Below, one piece after another: positions 1 through 13,823 of a DNA stretch of 64,000 nt. The translations under genes and the position numbers were made by a program. Below the pieces are notes generated by a model, which worked only from the letters and a program-made list of their open reading frames with translations, was not told the origin of the DNA and did no database searches. The stretch is from Kitasatospora albolonga (lineage in GTDB: Bacteria > Actinomycetota > Actinomycetes > Streptomycetales > Streptomycetaceae), in the NCBI GenBank assembly GCA_002082585.1, contig CP020563.1, positions 1-64,000 of the forward strand, written 5' to 3'. How positions within the stretch are numbered: position 1 is the stretch's first letter; each line of letters begins with the position of its first letter.

Positions 1-128
1 GTCTCCTCCCGTCGGCTGAATCCCCCGTGGCCAGGGCCTTTTAGGATCTTTTCCGGGGGCCGGTTCCCTCGGCAGGGAAAATCATTCAGTGCGTGGGGGC
101 GTTCCGCGCGTGTGGAGAACGGACCTAC

Positions 129-3100
129 ATGCCTGTGAACGACGACATGACGCTGCTGGATGTCCTGCTGGGCGCGGTCCGTGAGGCTCCCGGGCAGGTC
201 GTCGTCCATGTGCGCGGCGACGGCAGCGAACTGACCGTCACTCTGCGCGAACTCCTCGACGACGCGCTGCGCGTGGCCGGCGGCCTCCGTGGGGCCGGGG
301 TCGCGCCGGGGACCTGTGTGCCGCTGCTGGCCGACCGCAGCGAGGACTTCCAGCCGATGTTCTGGGGTGCGCTCGCCGCGGGGCTCGTGCCCGTGCCGCT
401 GGCCCCCGACGCCCGGCGTGTCCTGCCGGTCTGGGAGCACCTGGGGCGGCCGCCGCTCGTCGTGGACGCGGCCTCCTCGCCGGTGGTGGCTGAACTCCCC
501 GGTGGCGTAACTTCTCTGACGGTTGATGTGCTGCGGGAGGGTCCCGTGCTGCGGGAGCCCGTCCGGGCCGGGGCGGACCAGGTCGCGTTCGTGCAGTTCT
601 CCTCCGGGAGCACCGGTGCGCCCAAGGGGGTGGAGGTCACCCATCGTGCGGTGCTCGCCAACCTGGAGCAGATACGGGGCGCCTCGGCCCTGGGCCCGGA
701 CGACGTCGTGGTCAGCTGGATGCCGTACTTCCACGACATGGGACTCATCGGTACCCACCTCGCCCCCCTGGCCGCCCGGGCCAAGCAGATCAAGATCGGG
801 CCGCTGGCCTTCGCGAAACGGCCCCAGGTGTGGTTCGAGGCCGCCGCCCGGCACCGGGGCACCGTGCTCTCCGCCGCCAACTTCGCCCTGGCCCTGGCCG
901 TACGGCGGGTCCCCGACGAAACCCTCGCGCGGCTGGACCTCTCCGCCGTGCGGCTGATGCTCGTGGGCGCCGAGCCCATCGCTCCTGCGGTATGGCGGGA
1001 CTTCGCCCGCAAGACGCGCCCGGCCAGGCTCGCCGCCTCGGCCGCCCAGCCGGTCTACGGGCTGGCCGAAGCCACCCTCGCCGTGACCTTCCCGCCCCCC
1101 GGAGAAACCGCCCGGCCCCTCGCCCTGGACCGCGCCTCACTCAGCCGGGGAGCAGCGGTCGACGCCGTAACAGGCTGCGGGAGCGAAGGGGTTGTCGAGC
1201 TGATGGACGTCGGGCCGCCCGTGGCGGGCTGCGCCGTACGGATCACCGACGAGGAGGGGAGGGACCTCGGTGAACGAAGAGTCGGGCACATCATGGTCAG
1301 CGGGCCCCAGCTCGCCCGTGGCTACCACGGCCTCCCCCACGTGAGTGCCGGCGTGTTCGCCGACGGGTGGCTGCGGACCGGCGACCTCGGGTTCCTGCGC
1401 AACGGACGGCTGTGCGTCACCGGGCGGCACAAGGACGTCCTGTTCCTCAACGGGCGCACCTTCCACGCCCCGGACATGGAAGCGGTCGCCGCGGCCACCC
1501 CCGGGCTGCCTCCGGGCGCCCCTGCGGTGATCGGCTCGACCGACCCCGTGACCGGTGCGGAACGCGTCGTGGTGTTCGTCCCCTGGGCCCGCCCCCCTCA
1601 GGAGGCCCAGGAGGTGCTCGACCAGGTCGCCTCCCGGGTACGCGAAGCTCTCCTCCACGACGATGTACGGGTGCTGGCCCTGCCCCCGGCCGCGTTCCCC
1701 CGTACCACGAGCGGGAAGCTCCAGCGGCAGCGTCTGCGGGAGCGGTTCGAGGCCGGGGAGCAGGAAGAGCTGAGGGGCGGGGAGAAGCCGGGCGGCCGGG
1801 AAGGGCCGGGGAGCGGGGAGAAGCCGAGGGGCGGAGAGAAGTCGGAGGGTGGAGAGGAACCGGGGGGCCGGGAAGCGCCCGGGGGCGGAGCGGAGCCGGA
1901 AGGCCGGGAAGCGCCGGGCGGCCGGGAGAAGCCGGAAGGCGGGGAACCGGCCGGGGCTGGGGGTGTGGGCGGGCGGTCCGGGCGCGTCGGCGCTCCCCGT
2001 ACGCGGTCGGAGACCGAACAGGCCGTACGGGAGGTGTGGGCGCGTGTGCTGGGTCTTCCCGCGCCGTCCATCGGGCGCGACCAGCCGTTCGGGAGCCTCG
2101 GCGGGACGTCTCTGCGGGCCATGGAGGTTCTCGCCGGGCTGGAGGACGCCTTCGGTGTGACTCTGCCTCCGGCGGTGATCCGCGACCACGGGACCGTCGC
2201 CGCGCTCGCCGGTCATCTTCTGACCGCTGTCCCGGATCGTTCGCCGTCCGCCCTGGACGCCCCGGAGAGCGAGCGGCGGGCGAGCCGGAACAGCGGTCAG
2301 GGCAACCCCGTCGCAGCTGTCATCTCGATGGCGTGCCGGTTCCCCGGCGCCGATACCCCCGAGGCGTTCTGGGACCTGCTCAGCAGCGGACACGACGCCG
2401 TCACCCCCGTACCGGAAGAGCGGTGGAACGAGCAGGGGGCGGCGGAGGGGAAGCGCTGGGCGGGCCTGCTCGACGGGGTGGACCGGTTCGATGCCGAATA
2501 CTTCGGCATCGGCGAGGAGGAGGCCCGCGCGCTGGACCCGCAGGCGCGGCTCTTCCTGGAACTCGCGCACGAGGCCCTGGAGCGGGCCGGATACGCCGGG
2601 CCCCGACGGCGCGGGCGCAGGATCGGTGTCTTCGCCGCCGTCGGGGACAGCGGCTACCGGAGCGTCCTGGACCGCGCCCGCGCCGAGGGGGTTCCTGTGC
2701 ACGGTGCTCTCACCGGGAACCTGCCCAGCCTCATCGCCGCCCGGGTCTCCCAGAGCCTCGACCTCGACGGGCCGGCCCTCGCCGTGGACACCGCCTGCTC
2801 GTCGGGGCTGGTGGCCCTGCACCTGGCACGGCGCAGCCTCCTGGACGGCGAGTGCGACCTCGCCGTCGTCGGCGGTGTCAACCTCCACCTCACCTCCACC
2901 GGCCACCGGCTGCTGGAGGAGGCGCAGGCTCTCTCCCCCACCGGCCGCAGCCGCGCCTTCAGCGCCCGTGCCGACGGTTTCGTACCCGGCGAGGGCGGCG
3001 CCGCCCTCGTCCTGACCCGGCTGGACACCGCCCGCACCACCGGCGACCCGGTACTCGCGGTGGTCCGGGGCACGGCCGTCAACAACGACGGCCGGTCGAT

Positions 3101-3764
3101 GAGCCTCATGGCACCCAACCCGCTGCGGCAGCGCGAGGTCATCACCCGGGCGTACGAGGAAGCCGGTACCGACCCCGCCGCGGTCTCCTACGTGGAGGCC
3201 CACGGCACGGGTACGGCCGTGGGTGACCCGATCGAGCTGCGGTCGCTCGCCCACGCCTTTCCCGTACGGGCTGATGGCGAGCCCCGGCTGCTCGGTTCGG
3301 TGAAGACGAACATCGGCCATCTCCTCAACGCGGCCGCCCTGCCCTCCCTGGTGAAGGTCGTCCTCGCCCTGGGCCACCGCAGGCTCCCCGCATCGCTCCA
3401 CCACGCACCGCCCGCGCCGGGGCTCGCACCCGCCGGGTTCTCCGTGGTGACCGAGGCCCGGGAGTGGACCGGTGCCGGGCCGCTCGTGGCGGGCGTCAAC
3501 GCCTTCGGGTTCGGCGGCACCAACGCACACGCCGTCCTCGAACAGGCCCGCCCCCCGCCCCCGCACCCCGTCCGCCGGCCACGGCACCGGGCCCCATCTG
3601 CTGACCCTGTCGGCCCGCAGCGCCGCCGGACTCCGGGAGGCGGCAGCACAGCTGGCCGCCCGCCTGGACGAGCACCCGGAGCTCGACGAAGGGGACGTCT
3701 GCCTGAGCGCGAGCACATCCCGCGACGAGGGCCCCCACCGCCTCGCCGTCGTCGCGGACGGTGA
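129..3764 (+). CDS. Hybrid synthase, N-terminal part: FAAL-ACP-KS
   Basis: Loading and first condensing part of a large PKS/NRPS. Residues about 10-550 are a fatty-acyl-AMP ligase, with [11 protein letters not shown] near residue 158 and [10 protein letters not shown] near 310. Such ligases activate a free fatty acid and pass it to an ACP. A Gly/Glu/Lys repeat linker (about 545-620) leads to an ACP with the phosphopantetheine serine in GGTSLRAM (about 660). A ketosynthase follows, with the active Cys in DTACSSG (residue 890) and the His residues in EAHGTGT and KTNIGH. The ATG at 129 was chosen because GGAG lies 11 nt upstream; a GTG at 93 is also in frame. Recognisable protein ends at [16 protein letters not shown] near 3545. 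The last 70 codons are out of frame, and the synthase continues in another frame downstream. The domain calls are seen; the lipid substrate is unknown. Confidence 0.88.
1766..1965 (+). repeat. Degenerate tandem repeat in FAAL-ACP linker
   Basis: Purine-rich degenerate units of roughly 21-24 nt (core ggcggggagaagccg / ggccgggaagc) encode alternating GGEKP and GREAP pieces. The run sits exactly between the ligase and the ACP, so it is an expanded flexible linker, not a separate element. Confidence 0.7.
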
Positions 3765-4880
3765 TCTGCGGGACCGGCTCGGCATGCCTGCCGCACGCAT
3801 CGAGGGCCTTGCCCCCAACCGGGCACGCCTGGTCTTCCTGTTTCCCGGGCAGGGCGCCCGGTCCCGGGCCGGGACCGGGCCCTGTACCGTACGGCGCCGG
3901 TGTTCCGCGACACCCTGGACGAGGCGTCCGCGCTTGCCGGGCCGTGAACGGGCGGCCCCTTGTGGACTGGGCCCTGGACCCCGGGACGGACCCCGCCGGC
4001 CGGACCATGACGGAGGTGGCGCAGCCTCTGCTCGTCGCTTCCGGGGTCGCCCTCGCCCGGCAGCTGCGGACTGGGGCGTGGAGCCCGACGCCGTCGCCGG
4101 GCACAGCGTCGGGGAGATCACCGCCGCCTGTACCGCCGGGATACTGACCCTGAAGGACGCCGTACGGTTCGCGGCCGAACGCGGCCGCCTGATGGGACGC
4201 TCACCGGGCCCGGCGCCATGCTCGCCGTCCGCGCCGCAGAGAAGCCCGCCGCCGACGCGGTCGCCGACACGGTGGCCGGGGCCGGCGGTGACCTCACCGT
4301 GGCCGCGTACAACGGCCCCGGGCTCCAGGTCCTCTCCGGCACCGTCCCCGCCGTCGAACGCGCCGCCCGCGACCTCAGCGCCCGGGTGTCCCCGTACGCC
4401 GCCTGCACGTCTCGCGCGCCTTCCACTCACCGCTCATGCAGCCGGTCGCCGGCCGGCTCGCCGACGCCGCCCGCGCACTCACCCTCCACCCCCGGCCATC
4501 GCGCTGATGAGCACCGTCACCGCACAGTGGCAGCCCGTCCTCAGCCCCGAGTACCTGCGCGGCCACGCCCTGCGGCCCGTGCTGTTCGGGGCCGCCGTGG
4601 AGCGCATGGCCGGGGAGGGATTCGACACGTTCGTGGAGATCGGGCACGGGCGACCCTGTCGGGCGCGGCCCACGCGGCAGCAGCGGCTGCGACCGCGGAT
4701 ACGGATGCGACGGCTTCGGCTGCGGATGCGGCTTCGGCGGCTTCGACTGCGGCTGCGGCTGCGGCTTCGACTGCTGCTGGGCTGGGGTACGGCGTGCGGG
4801 AGGCCCGGACGCCAGTGGCGGCGGGAACACCGGAACCGAAGGCAGCCCCAGCGGCGGCGGCAGTGGTCCGTGCGGGCGGG
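3550..4880 (+). pseudogene. Acyltransferase (AT) domain of the synthase, frame-broken
   Basis: Continuation of the synthase. Read across successive frames it gives the KS-AT linker ([12 protein letters not shown]), [28 protein letters not shown], the nucleophile motif GHSVGE, then RAFHSPLM and FVEIGHG. The serine in GHSVGE and the HAFH-like RAFH box are the marks of a malonyl-CoA-specific AT. Breaks lie near 3555, 3860, 3940, 4069, 4210, 4392, 4490 and 4650. At most of them adding one G or C to a short G/C run restores the frame (for example cgg-actgg at 4069). Amino-acid conservation between breaks is good. The piece ends in an Ala/Thr/Asp-rich low-complexity linker (about 4680-4870). Either a decayed gene or sequence error; the uniform direction of the shifts favours error. 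Confidence 0.75.
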
Positions 4881-4882
4881 TA

Positions 4883-6375
4883 ATGGTGATACCCGCCCTG
4901 CCGGGAGACTCCGGCGACCGGCCGCTGCGGCACGACGGGCGCGGCGCGCTCCTGGAGACCGCCGGGCGGCTGTGGGCGCGCGGTGTACCGCTGGACCGCA
5001 CCTCGCTCGACACCGGCCACCAGCGGGTTCCGGTGCCTCCCTACCCCTTCCAGCGGCGGCGGTACTGGGCCGCCGACCCGCCGGTGAACCCGCTGCTCCA
5101 CCAGGTGCTGTGGGAGGACGCCCCCCTGCCCGAAACCCTGCCGGACGCGGCGCTTTCCGTGCTGCTGACCGGGTCTGACGCCCCGTCGGCCGACCGGCTC
5201 GCCGGGAGCTCTCCGCCGCGGGCCTGCGCCTGCACGCCCCGGGCGACGGGCCGCCGGACGCCGTGGTCCTGGTGGCCGGCCCGCGCCCGCCCAGGACGAC
5301 GCCGACACGCTCGGGGCGGCGCAGAATGCCGCACTGGCCGCCTTCGACGAGGCTCTCGCCCTGCTCGATGCGACCCAGGCCGGCCGGCTGGTCGTGCTCA
5401 CGGAAGACGTCCACACCACGGGCGCCGCCCCCGAACGGCCGCGGCCGGCCCACGCCATGCTGAACGGGCTGCTGCTGGCCCTGCCTCAGGAGACCCCGGG
5501 CTGCTCGGCCACCGCCCTCGACCTCTGCTCACTGGACACCCCCGCCCAGCGGCTCGACGCCGTACTCGCCGAACTCCGGGCACACACCGCCCCCGGGCAG
5601 GCCACCACCGTCGCCCGGCGTGCGGGCCGCAGACTCGTCCGTGGCACCGTCCCCCTGGCACCGGGCACCGCGGCACCGCCCCCGCTGCCGCCCGACGGGA
5701 CCTTCCTCATCACCGGAGGCGGCGGCGGAATCGGCGGCGCGCTCGCCCGGGACCTGGCCGCACGCGGCCGCCCCACCCTCGTACTCGCCGGGCGCTCACC
5801 CGGCCCCCCGCCGGACTCCTCGAGGAACTCCGCACGCTCGGCGCAACCGCCCACTACCACACGGCCGACATCACCTCCGAGCAGGACACCGACACACTCC
5901 TCTCCCAGCTGCCGCGCCTGGACGCCCTGTTCCACGCGGCCGGAGTGGTACGCCCCGGCACCCTGCGCAACCGGAACACGGACGAGACCGCCCAGGCCCT
6001 GGCCGCCAAGACCCGGGGCACCGTGCTGCTCTCCCTCGGGCTGCGACGGCACGGCCTCCACCCCGCGGTCTGCGTGGCGTTCTCCTCGGTCTGCGCCCTG
6101 CTCCCCGGCCTGGCGGGCGCCCTGGGCGACTACGCCGGAGCCAACGCCTTCCTCGACGCGTTCGCCGCGTCGCAGCGGCGGGCGGGCAGGCCGTGGCAGT
6201 CCGTGAACCTCGCCGCGATCGCCGGGACGGGCATGGCCACCGGTCTCGGCACACGGACGGCGCCGGGCCCCGCCCCCGTACAACGGGCCGGAAGCCTGCC
6301 GGTCGCCACCGCACCCGCCCTGGCGGCACTCCGTACGGCCTGCGGGCCGATACCGCACAGGTACTGCTCGCCGAT
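4883..6375 (+). pseudogene. Ketoreductase (KR) domain and preceding linker, frame-broken
   Basis: Begins with the typical post-AT stretch ending [11 protein letters not shown] and continues into a ketoreductase. The NADPH-binding loop is TFLITGGGGGIGGALA (about 5700) and the core has HAAGVVRPGTL, AFSSVCALLPG and GDYAGANAFLDAFA. The catalytic Ser and Tyr are therefore present, so the domain would be able to reduce a beta-keto thioester if the frame were whole. The LDD signature of B-type ketoreductases is absent (VVRPGTL in its place), so alcohol stereochemistry cannot be read with confidence. Breaks lie near 5203, 5288, 5805 and 6340, each restored by one added G or C. No dehydratase or enoylreductase is present, so the module should leave a beta-hydroxy group. 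Confidence 0.75.
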
Positions 6376-6539
6376 CTGACACCCCCGGCCCCCCACCCGC
6401 CCTCACCCCCGCACACGCCCTCACCCCCGCACACGCCGTCTGCCCCGCACAGGCCGTCGTCCTTGAACGAGCCGTCGTCCGCGCCGTTGAGCAGCCCGGC
6501 GCCCGCCACGGAGCGGATACCCGGCAGCGGCACCCGTAC

Positions 6540-6800
6540 GGAAACGGGTACCGGCACCGCCGCCCTGCTGCGCCGGCTCCTGGCCGGTGCGCTGCGGCTG
6601 CCGCCCGCCCAGATCCCCGACGACGAGCCGTTCCTCACCCTGGACTCGACTCACTCGCCGCCGTCGACCTCGTACGGCAGCTCGAACGCGAACTGGGCAC
6701 CGCGCTGCCCGCCACACTCTTCTTCGAGTACCGGACCGTCCGCGAACTCGCCGCACACCTCGACACCCCCACCGACCCCCCACCAACACCCCCGGTGCCC
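6540..6800 (+). pseudogene. Second acyl carrier protein domain, frame-broken
   Basis: Helical carrier domain reading LLRRLLAGALRLPPAQIPDDEPFLTL, then LDSLAAVDLVRQLERELG after a frame change at about 6640. Adding one base before ggactcgactca rebuilds the expected LGLDSL motif that carries the phosphopantetheine serine. It ends VRELAAHL and runs directly into a condensation domain, marking the PKS-to-NRPS handover. A Pro/Ser/His-rich repeat linker (about 6380-6480, ccgcacacgccctcaccc units) separates it from the KR. Confidence 0.7.
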
Positions 6801-8236
6801 CCAGTAGCCCTGGCGGCCCCCTCCCCCGTCGCGGACGGCGTACCGTTCCCGCTCACCCCCGTCCAACTGGCCCTCCACACCAGCAGCCGGCTCCACCCCG
6901 GCCTCCCGGCCCACGGCTACGTCCGCCAGACCGTCCAGGGCCCCCTGGACACCGGACTCCTCGAACACGCACTCACCGCGCTCGCCGACCGGCACACCAT
7001 GCTCCGCCTCCGCATCCACAACAGCAGCAACGACAACAGCACAGCAGGCCCTCAGCAGCACATCGCACCGCCCACAGCACTGTCCGCCTGGTACGAGGCA
7101 CGGGAGTGCCACGGCCGGATCGAGGACCTCGAAACCGCCCTGCGCAACCGGCCCTTCGACCTGGCCGCCGAACCCCCCGTACGCGCACTCCTCGCCCGGG
7201 AAAGCCCGGACCTGGCCCATCTCGTGCTGGTGATCCACCACGCCGCCGGGGACGGCTACAGCCTCAACGTCCTCGCCCAGGAGCTCTGGGCCCTCTACAC
7301 CGCTCTCACCCACGGGCAGCCCCTCCAAAAGGAAGAGGGCGGGGGCAAAAAGGAGGGAGGGGGCGCGCCGCCACTGCCCGCCCTCGCCGCCGACTTCGCC
7401 CGGTACGCGGCCGCGGCCGCCCAGGAGCGCTCCTCCACGACGGGCTCCACCGCCCTCGCCGCCGACCTGCGGTACTGGTCACACCGGCTGACCGGCCGGA
7501 CGGAACACTGCAACTGCCCTACGACAGCGACCCCGCCACCCTCCCCGCGGCTCCCCTGACCGCCCACCAGAGCGCCCTCACCCCGGCACTCACCACCCTG
7601 CTGGAAGAACGCGCCGCCGCCCACGGAGTCAGCCTGTTCCACCTCCTGCTCGCCACCCAGATACGCTGCCTGGCCCGCTGGAGCGGACAGCGCGGGATCA
7701 CCGTCAACGTCGCCCGCGCCCGGCGCGAGGGACGGCTACCGGGCCTGGACCGGCTCGTCGGGCCACTGGCCGACACCCTCCCCCTCCTCTGCGAGACCGA
7801 CCCGGACGAACCGGTATGGGCCCTGGCCGAACGGGTCGGGCGGATCTGGCTGGAGAACGAGCAGCACGCAACACCCACCAGCCTCGACCTGGCCCGGCTG
7901 CTGCCCCCGGGCCGACCGGGCACAGGGCTGCGGACAGCGAGCCCGGCCGGTTTCAGCTTCGCCCGCTTCCCCGCCACCCTCGACGAACACTGCCCGGTGA
8001 CCGTACGGCCGACCGCAGCCGGAACCGGAACCCCCACAACCCGCCTCAGCCTGCTGTGCTGGCAGGACGGCACAACCCTGCGCCTCTCCTGGAACTACCC
8101 CGCCCGCCTCTTCGACCCGGCAACAGTGGCCCGCCTGGACCGCGACTTCCACAACGAACTGAGCACCCTCACCCCAGGAACCACCCCTGCCCCTGCCCAG
8201 GGAACCACCATCGTGGAACGGCTCCTCGCCCGGTTC
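6801..8236 (+). pseudogene. First NRPS condensation (C) domain, frame-broken once
   Basis: The condensation domain starts PFPLTPVQLALHTSS and carries the catalytic HHxxxDG motif as HHAAGDGYS near 7238. After one frame change near 7495 it continues as GTLQLPYDSDP, GVSLFHLLLAT, DRLVGPLADTLPLL and LSWNYPARLFDP. It would join the beta-hydroxy-acyl chain on the upstream ACP to the amino acid on the downstream PCP, giving an N-acylated amino acid. Apart from the single break the domain is complete and well conserved. This argues that the gene was under selection until very recently, or that the break is an error. Confidence 0.75.
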
Positions 8237-8239
8237 CGT

Positions 8240-9945
8240 GCCACCCCGACGCGGTCGCCGTCGACACCGGCACCAGCACCAGCACGGGGACGGGGACGGG
8301 GACGGGCATCGGACAGGCACCGGCACGGGAACGGGAACCGGAACGGGAACCGGAACGGGAACCGAAACGGAACCGGAACGGGAACCGGAACGGGAACCGA
8401 AACGGGAACCGGAACGGGAACCGGAACGGGAACCGGAACGGGAACCGGAACGGGAACCGGAACGGGAACCGGAACGGGGACAGGCACTTTGACGTACGGG
8501 GAACTCGACCGCGCCTCCCGCACACTGGCGGCCCGGCTCCTGGCCACCGGCGTCACCCCGGGAAGCCTCGTCGGACTCCTCACCGAACCCGGCCCCGACA
8601 CCGTCGTCTCGGTCGTCGCCGTCCTGCGCACAGGCGCGGCTGGGTACCGCTCGACCCCAGCCACCCGCCCGCACGCCTCACCGACCAGCTCACCCGCTCA
8701 GGCACCCGCACCGTCCTCTGCCACGCGGCCACCCGGGCGACGGGCGAAACCCTCGGCGACATCACCCTGATCTCCGCCGACACACCCGAGCCCGCCCCGC
8801 AGCAGACGGACGGCCCCGAAAAAGCCACCGCCCCGGACCGCCCCGCCGACCCGGACTCACTCGCCTACGTCATCTTCACCTCCGGGTCCACCGGCCGCCC
8901 CAAAGCCGTCCCGATCACCTACCGCTCGATGGAGAACTACCTCAACTGGGCCATCAGCACCTTCGGTTACAACGAGCACGACCGCCTCGCCCAGACCGCA
9001 TCCCTCTGCTTCGACGCCTCCGTACGCCAGCTCCTCGCCCCCTGCTCACCGGCGCGACCGTGGTCACCGTGGACCGGGACCTCCTGCGCGACCCGAACTC
9101 CTCCTGACACACGTCGAACGCACCCGGATCACCGTGTGGAGCTCCGTACCCACCCTCTGGGAACAGCTCCTCACCGCCTCCGAGGAACGGGTCCGCTCCG
9201 GCGCACCCCGCCCGACCTGTCGGCGCTGAGATGGCTCCACGTCGGCGGCGAGACCCTCTCACCCGCCCACGTACGCCGCTGGTTCGACCTCTTCGGCAGC
9301 AGCCAGCACATCGCCAACCTCTACGGCCCCACCGAAGCGACCATCAACACGACCTGCCACATCATCCGCACCCGCCCCGGCGACCACGTACGGCACCTGC
9401 CCATCGGCCGCCCCGTCTCCGGTACGGAGGTCGAGGTCGTCGGCCCCGACGGGGAGACCCGGCGGCCCGGCGAACCCGGCGAGCTCCTCATCACCGGGAC
9501 CGGGCTGACCCCCGGCTACCTCGGCGAACCGGCCCTGACCGAAGCCGCGTTCACAACCCGGCGGGGCAAACGCTGGTACCGCAGCGGCGACCGGGTACGG
9601 ATGTCCGAGGACGGCACCCTGGACTTCCTCGGACGCCTGGACGACCAGGTGAAAGTCCGGGGCAACCGGGTCGAGCCCGGCGAGATCGAAGCGGTGCTCC
9701 AGACCCACCCCGACATCACCCAGGCCGTCGTCCTCCTCCACGGCAAACGCCTCACCGCCTTCGTCACCCCCCGGCCCGGAACCCCCGGCCCGGACCCCAT
9801 GGCACTCCGCCTCCACCTCGCCCAGGCACTGCCGCCGTACATGCTCCCCTCCCGCATCACCACCCTGGACAAAATGCCCCTCACCGCACAGGCAAGATCG
9901 ACCGCCGCCAACTGCCCTCGCTCCACACGGACACGCCACCGGAAA
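8240..9945 (+). pseudogene. NRPS adenylation (A) domain, frame-broken
   Basis: Amino-acid-activating domain. Motifs in order: LTYGELDRASRTLAARL (A1-A2, about 8490), YVIFTSGSTGRPKAVP (A3), CFDASVRQLLAP (A4), NLYGPTEATIN (A5), GELLITGTGLTPGYLG (A6), WYRSGDRVR (A7), FLGRLDDQVKVRGNRVEPGEIE (A8) and KIDRRQLP (A10). Breaks lie near 8247, within the 8282-8484 repeat, and near 8640, 9045, 9094, 9195 and 9890. Aligned by eye to GrsA, the specificity residues read roughly D-A-R-S-H-G-L-I-N-K. Position 239 being Arg is unusual, and I do not recognise a substrate. The repeat splits the N-terminal strand region (AVAVDTG ... GTLTYGEL), an odd place for a long insertion. Confidence 0.75.
8282..8484 (+). repeat. 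12-bp tandem repeat (ggaaccggaacg) inside the A domain
   Basis: About 200 bp of near-perfect units of 6/12 bp (ggaaccggaacg and variants ggaaccgaaacg, ggggac). Read in the three frames it encodes Gly-Thr, Asn-Arg-Asn-Gly or Glu-Pro-Glu-Arg repeats with no stop. It lies between two conserved strands at the N-terminus of the adenylation domain, where family members usually have a short loop, and the frame changes somewhere inside it. Confidence 0.85.
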
Positions 9946-10060
9946 ACAGACACAAACACGAACACGAAACGGCGCACGAAACGGCGCACGAAACGGTGCA
10001 CGAAGCAGCGCACGAAGCAGCGCAGGAACAGCAGACGGCGGGGAAAGAGGAAGCGGCGGC
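9945..10060 (+). repeat. 15-bp repeat in A-PCP linker
   Basis: Repeats of the type gcgcacgaaacg / gcgcacgaagca encode HETAHETAHETVHEAAHEAAQ in the coding frame, between the end of the adenylation domain and the carrier domain. Confidence 0.65.
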
Positions 10061-10084
10061 AAAGCCCGGCAACACCCCCCGCAC

Positions 10085-10310
10085 ACCGCCCGTGACACCG
10101 ACCGAAATCCGGCTGGCCCGCATCTGGTCCGCACTGCTCCAGACCGACGACATATGCCGCGAGGACGACTTCTTCACCCTGGGCGGCGACTCCCTGCTCG
10201 TCCTCGAAGTATTCGCCCAACTGGAAAAGCAGCAGGGCGGGGTGCTCCCCCGGCCCACCGTCATCTACCACAACCGCACCCTCACCTCCCTCGCCGCCAC
10301 CCTGGACACC
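10085..10310 (+). pseudogene. NRPS peptidyl carrier protein (PCP) domain
   Basis: Carrier domain read in a single frame: TPTEIRLARIWSALLQTDDI, DDFFTLGGDSLLVLEVFAQLE and PRPTVIYHNRTLTSLAATL. The phosphopantetheine attachment serine is in GGDSLLV (about 10182). It belongs to the upstream adenylation domain and hands the chain to the second condensation domain. The domain itself is intact; it is listed as pseudogene only because the frame is broken on both sides. Confidence 0.8.
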
Positions 10311-10454
10311 ACCACAGCAGCAGACACCACCACCGCAGGCGCAGGCGCAGCGCAGCCCCGGTACGGAAAACAGACAGAGAGCCCCCGGCACAGAAACCCG
10401 GCACGACCCCGGCAGCAACGGACGACCAAGCCCGGACCAGGGCGGGGCCGGGCC

Positions 10455-11780
10455 GGGGCGGGCCCACGCCCTTCCCGCTCACACCCACCCAGCAGGGCTT
10501 CCTGCTGGCCGAGGCCATCGCACCGGGCACAACATCGTCCTGGATCACCCGGCTGCGCCTGCACGGCCCCCTCGACACCACCCGCTTCCAGAGCACCGTC
10601 GACACCCTCGTGGCCCGGCACCCCATGCTGCGCACCGTCTTCCCCGCCGGAACACGACCGGCCATCCAGCAGGAACTCCCGCCCTCCCTGCGCCTGCCCG
10701 TCGACTTCGAGACCCTCACCGACCCCCACGACGTGGAAACCCGGGTCGCCGCCGAACGCACACGCCGCTTCGAACCCTGGCCTGGCCACTGCTGCGCCTG
10801 CGCGTACTCACCCTCACCCCCGACGAACACGTCCTCCTGGTCCACGCCCACCACATCATCGGCGACGGATACAGCGCGGCACTCCTGATCCGCGAACTGA
10901 CAACCACGTACGACGCCCTGTCCCGGGGCGAGGACCCTGCCCTGCCCCACTGCGCGGCACCTTCCGCGACCACGCCACCCACCTCCCCGCACGAAACGGC
11001 TCGGCCACCTCAACAGGCCCCGAAACAGGCACTGTTACAGCGCAGCAGCCGGGCAGCGAGGACCGGTGGACACGGCTGAACGCGCCCTACCACCTGCCCG
11101 TACTGGGCAAGGAAGCCAAAAACAGCAGCCGGAAGACAACGGGCCCCCACACCCCCTTCCACACACACGGGTTCACGATCGGCACCGGCCAGGTGACAAA
11201 GCTCCGCGACCTCGCCTCCCGCAACAGCACCTCCCTCCACACCCCCGTACTCACCGCGTACTACCGGCACTCGCCACAACGACCGGGCAGAGCGACCTGA
11301 TACTCGGCCTCGCCGTCAGCGGCCGGAACCCCTCCCTGCCCGACGCACACCGGGTATTCGGCCCCTACGCCACCGCCGTACCCCTGCGCCCGGCCGGCCC
11401 GGAGTCCGGGCGGCCCCCACCGCGGGCTTCGAGAACGACCTGCGGCACATCGCCGCCGAGGCCACCGCAGCACAGATCCACGACGGCCCCGTGCCGGCCC
11501 TGCCCCACGGACTGCCCCTGACCTCACAGTTCTTCTTCACCTACCTCGACTTCACCGCCCTGGAACCACAGAGCGGACAGACACTGACCATCACCCAGGA
11601 CAACAGCGACAGCGAGTACACACCGCCTCCGGTCGGCACGGACGTATTCCTGGCCGCCGCCCTGGACTCCGGACGACTGCGGCTCACCTTCCGCGCATCG
11701 GCCACAGCACTCACCCCGCAAGACCTCGCCACCCTCGCAGACGCGGTACGCGACGACCTGAACCACGCCGCAGACACACC
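10455..11780 (+). pseudogene. Second condensation-type domain, frame-broken
   Basis: Starts FPLTPTQQGFLLAEA and has the catalytic motif HHxxxDG as HAHHIIGDGYS (about 10850), followed by LHTPVLTAYYRALA, LILGLAVSGRNPS and TSQFFFTYLDF near 11520. Breaks lie near 10430, 10785, 10950, 11265 and 11412. It is not followed by an A or PCP domain. It may therefore release the chain onto a free nucleophile, or act on an amino acid delivered by another protein; this is inference. Its tail runs into a Pro/Thr/Gly-rich linker with repeats at about 11860-12010 (ggggcagggaccggggcagg type). Confidence 0.7.
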
Positions 11781-12030
11781 CCCACCAGCCACACCCACCC
11801 AGACCGCCGCACCAGCCCTGAAACAGCCCCCGGCCACCCCCACCCCGACCACCCCCGCCGGACAGGGACCGGCCGGACAAGTCCCCACCGGACAGGTCAC
11901 GGAACAGCGGAGCACCGGGAACCGGACCGCACCGCGACCAGGACCAGGGCCAAGGCCGAGCCCGAGGCCGGGACCGGGGCAGGGACCGGGGCAGGGGCAG
12001 GGGCAGGGCATAGCCCGGCAGGAACAGCCC

Positions 12031-13127
12031 ATGGACGCAGCCCTCATCGGCTACCTGCCCTCCCCCGCCCACCTCGCCCACCTCGCACAGCTCCCCGAAA
12101 CGGCACTCCCCCGCGAAGAACTGCGGACCCTGCTCTTCCCCGACGGACACCCACGGCTCCTGGAAACCCTCAGCACACCACTGGGGCGTTCCGGCTTCGT
12201 ATGCATACCGCTCTTCGCCGACGAACTCGCCCCCGGCGAAACCCTCCTACGACACACCGTCCACGGCGTGGACCTCGCCTCGTCCCTCGGCGCCCGGACC
12301 GTCTCCCTCGCCGGCATGATCCCCTCACACACCAACTACGGATTCGACGTCCTACGCGCCACCACCACCGCAGCCGTCACCACCGGCCACGCCACAACCG
12401 TCGTCTCCGTCGTCAAAACCGTCCACGCCGCACTCGACGCCACCGGACAACAACTCGGCGACCTCACCGTCGCCTTCGTAGGACTCGGCTCAATCGGCTC
12501 CTCCTCCCTGGAACTACTGCTCAGCCAGGCCCCCACCCCACCCGCCCGGCTCCTGCTCTGCGACCTGCCCGGCAGCCGGCCACGCCTCAACCAACTCGCC
12601 GAACACCTCCGCCAACACGGCCTCGCCAACACCATCGACATACTCGAATCAGACCGGGAACTCCCCGATACCGTCTACAAAGCCCGGCTGATCGTCACAG
12701 CAGTCAGCGGCGACGCCACACTCCTCGACATCGACCGCCTCCACCCCGGCACAACCGTCATCGACGACTCCTTCCCCACTGCTTCGACACCACACGCGCC
12801 ATCACCCGGATGACCCGCACCAAAGACGTCCTCATCGCCGGCGGCGGACTACTGCACATCGGCCCCGTCCAACGCCACCTCGCCCAAGGACTCCCACCCG
12901 CCGCCATCACGGGCTACCTCACACAACCCCAACTCCCCAACACCATCGCCTCCTGCAGACTCGAATCACTCCTCCACGCCTCCACAACAGACCTACCACT
13001 CGTCCACGGCACCGTCACCACACCCACCGCCCAGACCTACTGGCACACAACCCAAACCACCAAAACACACGCCGCACCACTCCACCTACACACCCACACC
13101 ATCAACCCCAACACAAACCAACACACA
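12031..13127 (+). pseudogene. NAD(P)-binding reductase domain or protein, acyl-ACP-reductase-like, 3' truncated
   Basis: Starts MDAALIGYLPSPAHLAHL. The overall plan resembles aldehyde-forming acyl-ACP reductases (AAR): LIGYLPS at the N-terminus, VSLAGMIPSHTNYGFD, a Rossmann loop VAFVGLGSIGSSSLELLL, ARLIVTAVSGDATLLDID, TTVIDDSFP and VLIAGGGLLHIGPV. If so it would release a chain as an aldehyde; this is inference from motif order only. The ATG at 12031 has AGGAA 6 nt upstream but is also in frame with the NRPS upstream, so it may be a fused domain or a reinitiating gene. One break at about 12775 (one C short in ttcccc-act) is followed by CFDTTRAITRMTRTKDV. The 3' end dissolves into A/C-rich codons and stops at the transposase remnant near 13128. 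Confidence 0.5.
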
Positions 13128-13333
13128 ACCCCGGGTGGGCACCAGGGTGCCGTCCACGATGAGCACGATGTCCTTGGCGAACCGCTGGCGGGGCTGGAGA
13201 GCGAGCATCGGTCCGAGGCGATCGATGATCCGGCCCACCGCCGACTTCGACACCCCTGACAACAGCACCGTCGTACCGCCGGACGTCCACAGCCCCGCAG
13301 ACAGGCGACGTACGACGATGTCACCGTCCGGGC
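13128..13333 (-). mobile_element. Transposase remnant (DDE-type, HTH part)
   Basis: On the minus strand a fragment reads DIVVRRLSAGLW, TTVLLSGVSKSAVGRIIDRL, GPMLALQPRQRFAKDIVLIV and DGTLVPTR. This is the helix-turn-helix and the start of the DDE domain of a transposase family common in Streptomyces, where IVDGTLVPTRDH normally continues. Homology is cut off exactly where the synthase sequence begins, at about 13128-13132, and it lacks an N-terminal start. No inverted terminal repeats were recognised. It marks a deletion or recombination junction, or a contig join at a repeated IS. Confidence 0.7.
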
Positions 13334-13394
13334 AGCCGCCAATCACAAAGTGCGGCAACCTGGGCGCAGGACATCCCGCGATGGAGGAGTATCT

Positions 13395-13823
13395 GTGGCT
13401 CTCACCCACGACGAGCGTGAACAGTTCCTGGCCGAACCCCATGTCGCCGCGCTGGCCGTGGACTCGGCGGAGGAGGGGCGCGCCCCGCTCACCGTGCCGA
13501 TCTGGTACCAGTACGCGCCCGGAGGCGACCTCTGGATCATGACCGGGCGCGACTCCCGCAAGGGGAGGCTGATCGCCGGAGCGGAGCGGTTCACCCTGAT
13601 GGTCGACCGTGTCGAACCGACCGTCCGTTACGTGTCCGTGGAGGGCCCTGTCGTCTCGACGCTCCCCGCCACCCGTGAGCAGTTGGTGGAGATCTCGGCC
13701 CGCTATCTGCCCGCGGAGAAGGTCGACGCCTATGTCGACTTCGCCTGGAAGGAACACGGCGAGCAGGTGGTCATCCACATGCGGCCCCAGCGCTGGCTGA
13801 GTTCGGACCTCGGCGGATTCTGA
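13395..13823 (+). CDS. Pyridoxamine 5'-phosphate oxidase-fold (PNPOx-like) protein
   Basis: 142-residue split-barrel flavin/F420-type protein: LTHDEREQFLAEPHVAALAV, then GRAPLTVPIWYQY, GDLWIMTGRDSRKGRLI and RYVSVEGPV. These are the strand and cofactor-phosphate segments of small Streptomyces PNPOx-like proteins, usually FMN- or F420-dependent oxidoreductases of unknown substrate. GTG at 13395 was chosen because GGAGGAG lies 6 nt upstream; more upstream starts would run into the transposase remnant. It is followed by a strong terminator and is monocistronic. Confidence 0.8.
   Translation: MALTHDEREQFLAEPHVAALAVDSAEEGRAPLTVPIWYQYAPGGDLWIMTGRDSRKGRLIAGAERFTLMVDRVEPTVRYVSVEGPVVSTLPATREQLVEISARYLPAEKVDAYVDFAWKEHGEQVVIHMRPQRWLSSDLGGF

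Follow-up and report, generated by a model that had tools for sequence, protein, structure and literature searches.

The window analysed here comprises bases 1 to 64,000 of contig CP020563.1 (Kitasatospora albolonga, assembly GCA_002082585.1) and forms the left end of a Streptomyces chromosome that was assembled as a single contig of 8,027,788 bases. Its outer part carries the gene of a polyketide synthase–non-ribosomal peptide synthetase (PKS-NRPS) hybrid, in which an earlier note on this DNA had listed 28 breaks of the reading frame. We found that a 4001-base piece of the zone with the frame changes has a second copy of 4017 bases at the far contig end, on the opposite strand. When the right end was aligned, this match proved to be part of a terminal inverted repeat (TIR; Table 1). 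By BLAST, the two TIR copies share 11,358 identities in 11,412 columns, with 3 mismatches and 46 gap openings; the MAFFT alignment contains 44 gap events and 9 mismatches. The left chromosome end extends 2149 bases beyond the right end, and these bases have no assembled partner. The inner TIR boundary falls within a gene of the PNPOx_N family. Because this gene is whole at the left, the position of the boundary points to the left end as the donor in the formation of the TIR, with the right end receiving the copy.

The homology of the synthase to a 4202-residue protein of S. anulatus NRRL B-2873 covers window positions 147 to 13112. In the clean 5' frame of the window, Pfam profiles detect AMP-binding, carrier and ketosynthase (KS) domains. 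The right TIR copy contains acyltransferase (AT), ketoreductase (KR), carrier, condensation and AMP-binding domains, together with a second carrier domain and a second condensation stretch. Thus, the KS, AT, carrier, condensation and adenylation domains that define a PKS-NRPS hybrid are all present, both in the clean pieces and in the S. anulatus protein. Similarity to fatty acyl-AMP ligases was seen for the first AMP-binding domain, with scores below the curated cut-offs. For further comparisons, we used nine relatives, chosen as those with the best DNA similarity among 295 genus genomes, plus S. anulatus. The synthase frame is continuous in all nine, with a length of 4089 to 4509 codons.

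Table 1. Features at the left chromosome end (coordinates are window positions).
Feature	Position	Strand	Remarks
PKS-NRPS hybrid synthase	93..13259	+	One frame up to about 3.55 kb in the window copy
Open frame, clean 5' part (AMP-binding, carrier, KS)	93..3764	+	No frame event before 3565
TIR, left copy	2150..13525	+	BLAST and MAFFT; matches the last 11,397 contig bases in reverse complement
Stretch with faulty right copy	2169..3691	+	Right copy: 10 losses (15 bases), 3 gains
Error zone of the window copy	3550..12774	+	31 losses (33 bases) in G/C runs, no gains
Coding strand poor in G, rich in C and A	5400..13112	+	Also in the clean right copy
12-base tandem array in the synthase, G- and A-rich	8284..8478	+	Frame uncertain in both copies
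Foreign sequence, about 125 bases	13132..13256	-	Entered by the synthase frame in both copies; translations
PNPOx_N-family gene	13350..13823	+	Pfam PF01243, 33.7 bits (cut-off 28.1); complete at the left end

To describe the frame changes, we aligned window positions 1 to 13400 to the S. anulatus protein with a frameshift-aware method. Against this reference, the window copy shows 28 frame events. Of these, 26 are one-base losses and 2 have the opposite sense, which agrees with the previous observation that nearly all breaks shift the frame in the same direction. The alignment contains 3025 identities in 4089 aligned codons, and none of these codons is an in-frame stop. With frameshift penalties of 12, 25 and 35, the number of events was 30, 26 and 25, respectively.

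The comparison to the right TIR copy resolves the events at the level of single bases. The window copy is shorter than the right copy at 34 places (36 bases). For three of these places (3250, 3435 and 3691), the homologue assigns the difference to extra bases in the right copy. The window copy is thus left with the 31 losses of the error zone, 29 of one base and 2 of two bases. Counting losses against gains in an alignment to the homologue had been proposed as a check in the earlier note, and the outcome is entirely one-sided. The breaks listed there coincide with the places detected here: 27 of the 28 (one of them given as a range) lie within 20 bases of a shortening of the window copy, and the remaining one is 101 bases off. 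For random points, about 3.5 of 27 would be expected at this distance, and the maximum in 2000 draws was 12. Close neighbours among the 31 losses had been fused in that list. Its two exceptions to the common direction probably correspond to the two-base loss near 3550 and to two losses inside the 12-base tandem array.

The losses are restricted to runs of G or C. Between the first and the last of the 34 raw events in which the window copy is shorter, the proportion of affected G/C runs is 1 of 1193 for runs of length two, 10 of 380 for length three, 15 of 114 for length four, 5 of 47 for length five and 3 of 12 for length six; none of the 2297 A/T runs, singles included, is affected. Substitutions are rare, with 4 mismatches inside the error zone, 3 of which touch gaps. 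Among all 9 mismatches of the MAFFT alignment, a single one is found more than 10 bases from any gap. The excess of losses over gains, their position in homopolymer runs, the low number of substitutions and their absence from the other TIR copy are the features of homopolymer omission in long reads. The earlier suggestion of homopolymer under-calling thus gains support from a second copy in the same assembly and from the restriction to G/C runs. In the parts of the literature on PacBio assemblies of Streptomyces that treat such errors, C or G is described as missing in runs of at least three bases, and synthase genes appear frameshifted (PMC4487206; reviewed in PMC4849082). For S. leeuwenhoekii, 2934 inserted bases are given compared to 42 base changes in 7.9 Mb (PMC4487206).

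If the two TIR copies do not differ in the cell, as we assume, the right copy can serve as an independent reading. A single open frame of 3168 codons runs through the right copy in the part where the window copy keeps shifting. When compared to the S. anulatus homologue, the right copy shows 10 events, which comprise 8 events in its outer part and one compensating pair. The outer events, at window equivalents 2168 to 3691, include 5 in the losing sense (one of two bases) and 3 gains. Inward of 3.7 kb, the right copy contains only the compensating pair (8190 and 8361), which lies near the tandem array and whose first member is common to the window copy (pair at 8190 and 8255). Both pairs were obtained at the default penalty; that of the right copy is absent at penalties of 25 and 35, and a penalty of 12 adds one event in the right copy just where the homology ends. 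Apart from this pair, the fault of the right copy is confined to its outermost 1.5 kb and forms a mirror image of the window copy: errors in the window copy occur between 3550 and 12774 and not further out, whereas those in the right copy are limited to its tip. Before any assignment by the homologue, the side of the 44 gap events sorts perfectly by position, with 10 events in which the right copy is shorter followed by the 34 in which the window copy is shorter.

We then compared repeated to unique DNA. A codon-usage frame model was used to score frame switches with and without a stop nearby. All 13 stop-free switches of the window are located at 3547 to 11402, and none was found between 13.5 and 64 kb; in this form, the earlier statement that the rest of the window lacks breaks can be upheld. 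Switches with a stop nearby number 21 in the window: 7 lie in the error zone, and the other 14 are found beyond 17.7 kb, in a part where normal transitions between genes would be expected to give such switches. Seven 20-kb stretches (140 kb in total), with open frames of 3595, 4610 and 5417 codons among them, served as controls; here the model detected no stop-free switch and 14 switches with a stop. At the right end, the terminal 60 kb contain 4 stop-free switches, namely 2 at the rough tip and one pair further in.

The repeats that we examined outside the chromosome ends are the ribosomal RNA (rRNA) operons, five of which are fully readable and were aligned. Two of them, L046 (near 3.29 Mb) and L047 (near 6.30 Mb), together carry 8 isolated single-base losses. 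Six of these sit in G/C runs of 4 to 6 bases, which hold 4.7% of the positions; one of the six lies in the 16S gene, three lie in the 23S gene and two in the leader or spacer. The losses of both operons are probably assembly errors too. Because errors are found at both chromosome ends and in two rRNA operons, and not in unique DNA, we conclude that the error is tied to repeated DNA, as far as we looked.

Three further observations were made in these comparisons. The pair of stop-free switches further in from the right tip, 253 bases apart and about 27.2 to 27.5 kb from the right contig end, lies outside the TIR and is unexplained. Operon L043 differs from the others by 66 mismatches, 42 inserted columns and 6 missing columns. 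These differences are mostly clustered, which resembles ordinary divergence, and they were not scored as errors. A sixth operon, near 793 to 800 kb, appeared as a worse copy by its fragment scores, but its stretch holds 5000 N and it was excluded from the count.

Taken together, the frame changes are almost certainly assembly errors and not mutations, most likely homopolymer omissions of the long reads that were left in those repeat copies that polishing missed. As the synthase lies within the TIR, it is present twice in the assembly. The type of error suggests that the long-read consensus omitted single bases from short G/C runs. Correction would then have succeeded in unique DNA, and for each repeat stretch one copy alone would have been corrected. 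Reads fitting both copies may have gone to the best-matching copy. The left end would have been favoured over the outermost 3.5 kb, where the right end is rough; further inward, the right end would have been favoured, and the left copy would have retained its omissions at 3.55 to 12.8 kb. The single swap of sides suggests that the correction ran inward, presumably starting from the partnerless outer 2149 bases of the left end and continuing until it met the clean right copy. An effect of this kind is described in the Polypolish paper: reads are placed on whichever repeat copy is free of the error, so that the erroneous copy remains uncovered (PMC8812927).

The frame is very probably continuous in both copies in the cell. 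Directly visible are the 3168 codons of the right copy and the 5' part of the left copy, from which we infer the continuity of the whole gene. The earlier note had considered the gene to be probably intact in the organism. This is supported as regards an unbroken frame; it does not hold for the end of the gene, whose last residues have given way to about 48 foreign codons in both copies.

Several observations weigh against an explanation by uncorrected repeat copies. Once the homologue is used to assign the differences, a slight overlap of the two sides emerges, since the left loss at 3550 is located further out than the right gain at 3691. Gains occur beside losses at the right tip. Among the 8 isolated losses of L046 and L047, 2 affect A/T positions that do not belong to the rRNA genes, and two of the five operons (L044 and L045) show no losses. 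In addition, 31 losses within about 9.2 kb correspond to a density some ten times higher than that of the bases inserted during correction of the S. leeuwenhoekii genome; the raw consensus would therefore have been poorer than usual here. Finally, we infer the sequencing platform, the depth and the polishing.

A related explanation, put forward in the earlier note, is that the bases were under-called owing to locally low read depth at the contig end, independently of the repeat. The errors in the last 1.5 kb of the right contig end are what one would expect from low depth at an end. However, the outermost 3.5 kb of the left end are clean and the fault starts inward, two rRNA operons deep in the chromosome carry the same kind of loss, and stretches that are faulty at one end are almost all clean at the other. 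We thus consider low depth at the end to be an unlikely cause.

True decay, by which the left copy would be a pseudogene with accumulated frameshifts and the right copy would have stayed whole, is extremely improbable. Streptomyces chromosome ends evolve fast, and the 3' end of the gene is genuinely altered in both copies, both of which would be consistent with decay. However, decay should leave stops, substitutions and gains beside losses, and these are lacking in the window copy, apart from the few mismatches, most of which touch gaps. The earlier argument that such one-sided losses are unlike decay is therefore borne out: 31 losses stand against no gain, the aligned codons are free of in-frame stops, and only G/C runs are affected. 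Furthermore, the right copy has the mirror fault in its outer stretch, and the rRNA genes carry the same signature. Programmed or tolerated frameshifting, in which the ribosome would read through the many shifts, can practically be dismissed, as only their common direction speaks for it, whereas the right copy and all nine relatives have one frame. We thus conclude that the shattered synthase is a technical artefact and not a real biological feature.

The 3' end of the synthase differs from the homologue in a way that is independent of these errors, as it is seen in both copies. The homology ends at residue 4193 of the 4202 residues of the S. anulatus protein, and the frame continues for about 48 codons (window positions 13112 to 13259). 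The tail of about 125 bases has 89 to 91% identity to at least 15 places in at least 14 other Streptomyces genomes among the matches listed. The last residues are thus truly replaced by a foreign remnant in both copies. Read on the minus strand, the tail gives a putative transposase-like frame. Downstream of the synthase, 6 of the 9 relatives have a small gene of 172 to 180 codons that starts at most 200 bases from the synthase end, whereas the next good frame here is that of the PNPOx_N-family gene. The small gene has no Pfam match in the two relatives that were scanned, and no homology search was made for it.

Lastly, we analysed the base composition of the synthase, whose coding strand has lost G over a long stretch (Table 1). 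This skew is absent from all nine relatives. It is also reflected in the protein: in the last third of the synthase, T, H, Q and N make up 23.2% of the residues compared to 10.1 to 11.5% in the nine relatives, whereas A, R, E and D make up 26.5% compared to 34.2 to 37.5%. We counted substitutions at sites where the nine relatives agree, in three successive parts from 5' to 3'. The G>A counts were 22, 51 and 106 (6.0%, 7.4% and 16.6%) and the G>C counts 15, 49 and 56; the C>T counts were 3, 4 and 4 (0.5 to 0.8%). When three relatives were used as focal controls, no comparable excess was found, and the largest G>A count in any part was 23. Nine long frames elsewhere in the genome have a GC skew between -0.08 and +0.08, and two of them have an AT skew of 0.14 and 0.17. 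A skewed piece of 1.2 kb has matches at 1e-30 or better in 68 of 392 genus genomes, this one included. No close skewed relative was found among the 392 genomes, the best match in another genome reaching 76% identity. Among the ten synthases compared, the loss of G from the coding strand is lineage-specific and resembles genetic repeats of intense nucleotide skews (GRINS) without internal repeats.

In the descriptions of GRINS that we draw on here, these elements combine intense GC and TA skew with high identity to another region of the same PKS (PMC10394414, PMC9899208). The synthase is similar to what these descriptions give, as it has a strong GC and TA skew and is an actinobacterial PKS-NRPS hybrid. 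Of 18 windows of one kb, 12 exceed 0.15 in both skews and 4 exceed 0.25 in both, so that the skew thresholds are reached in part of the gene. The repeat is different: no 500 bases at 80% identity were found within the gene, not counting the TIR partner. There are two off-diagonal self matches, the longest with 132 bases at 77%, located at the tandem array. The skew spans about 7.5 kb and rises toward the 3' end without an internal repeat. The only long repeat partner known for the skewed synthase is the other chromosome end. It is conceivable, as a tentative suggestion, that exchange between the chromosome ends drives or maintains a GRINS-like skew that has no internal repeat partner. If the skew of the clean copy is also found in related strains, it would bear on the origin of GRINS-like skews without repeats within the gene.

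The artefact has consequences for the use of the assembly. Gene calling would yield a shattered pseudogene at one chromosome end and an almost complete gene at the other, and the cluster that carries the synthase would be misjudged in genome mining. Errors of this kind can be detected within an assembly by a simple comparison of both ends of a linear chromosome. That other repeats of this assembly share the fault is shown by the rRNA operons.

When comparing the synthase to its homologue from S. anulatus NRRL B-2873 (NZ_JOEZ01000034.1), we find homology along nearly the entire protein and the same set of domains. The S. anulatus gene, in contrast, is whole in one frame, has its own C-terminus and shows no skew. 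The frame changes resemble the omissions in PacBio assemblies of Streptomyces, as described in the parts of PMC4487206 and PMC4849082 that concern them, in the losses from G/C runs, the frameshifts in synthase genes and the rarity of substitutions. The omissions described there were genome-wide before correction, whereas those found here occur in repeats only, as far as we looked. The case discussed in the Polypolish paper (PMC8812927), in the passages on repeat copies, would be similar in that the reads align to the error-free copy and leave the faulty copy without cover. It differs in that the favoured copy switches side once along the 11-kb TIR studied here.

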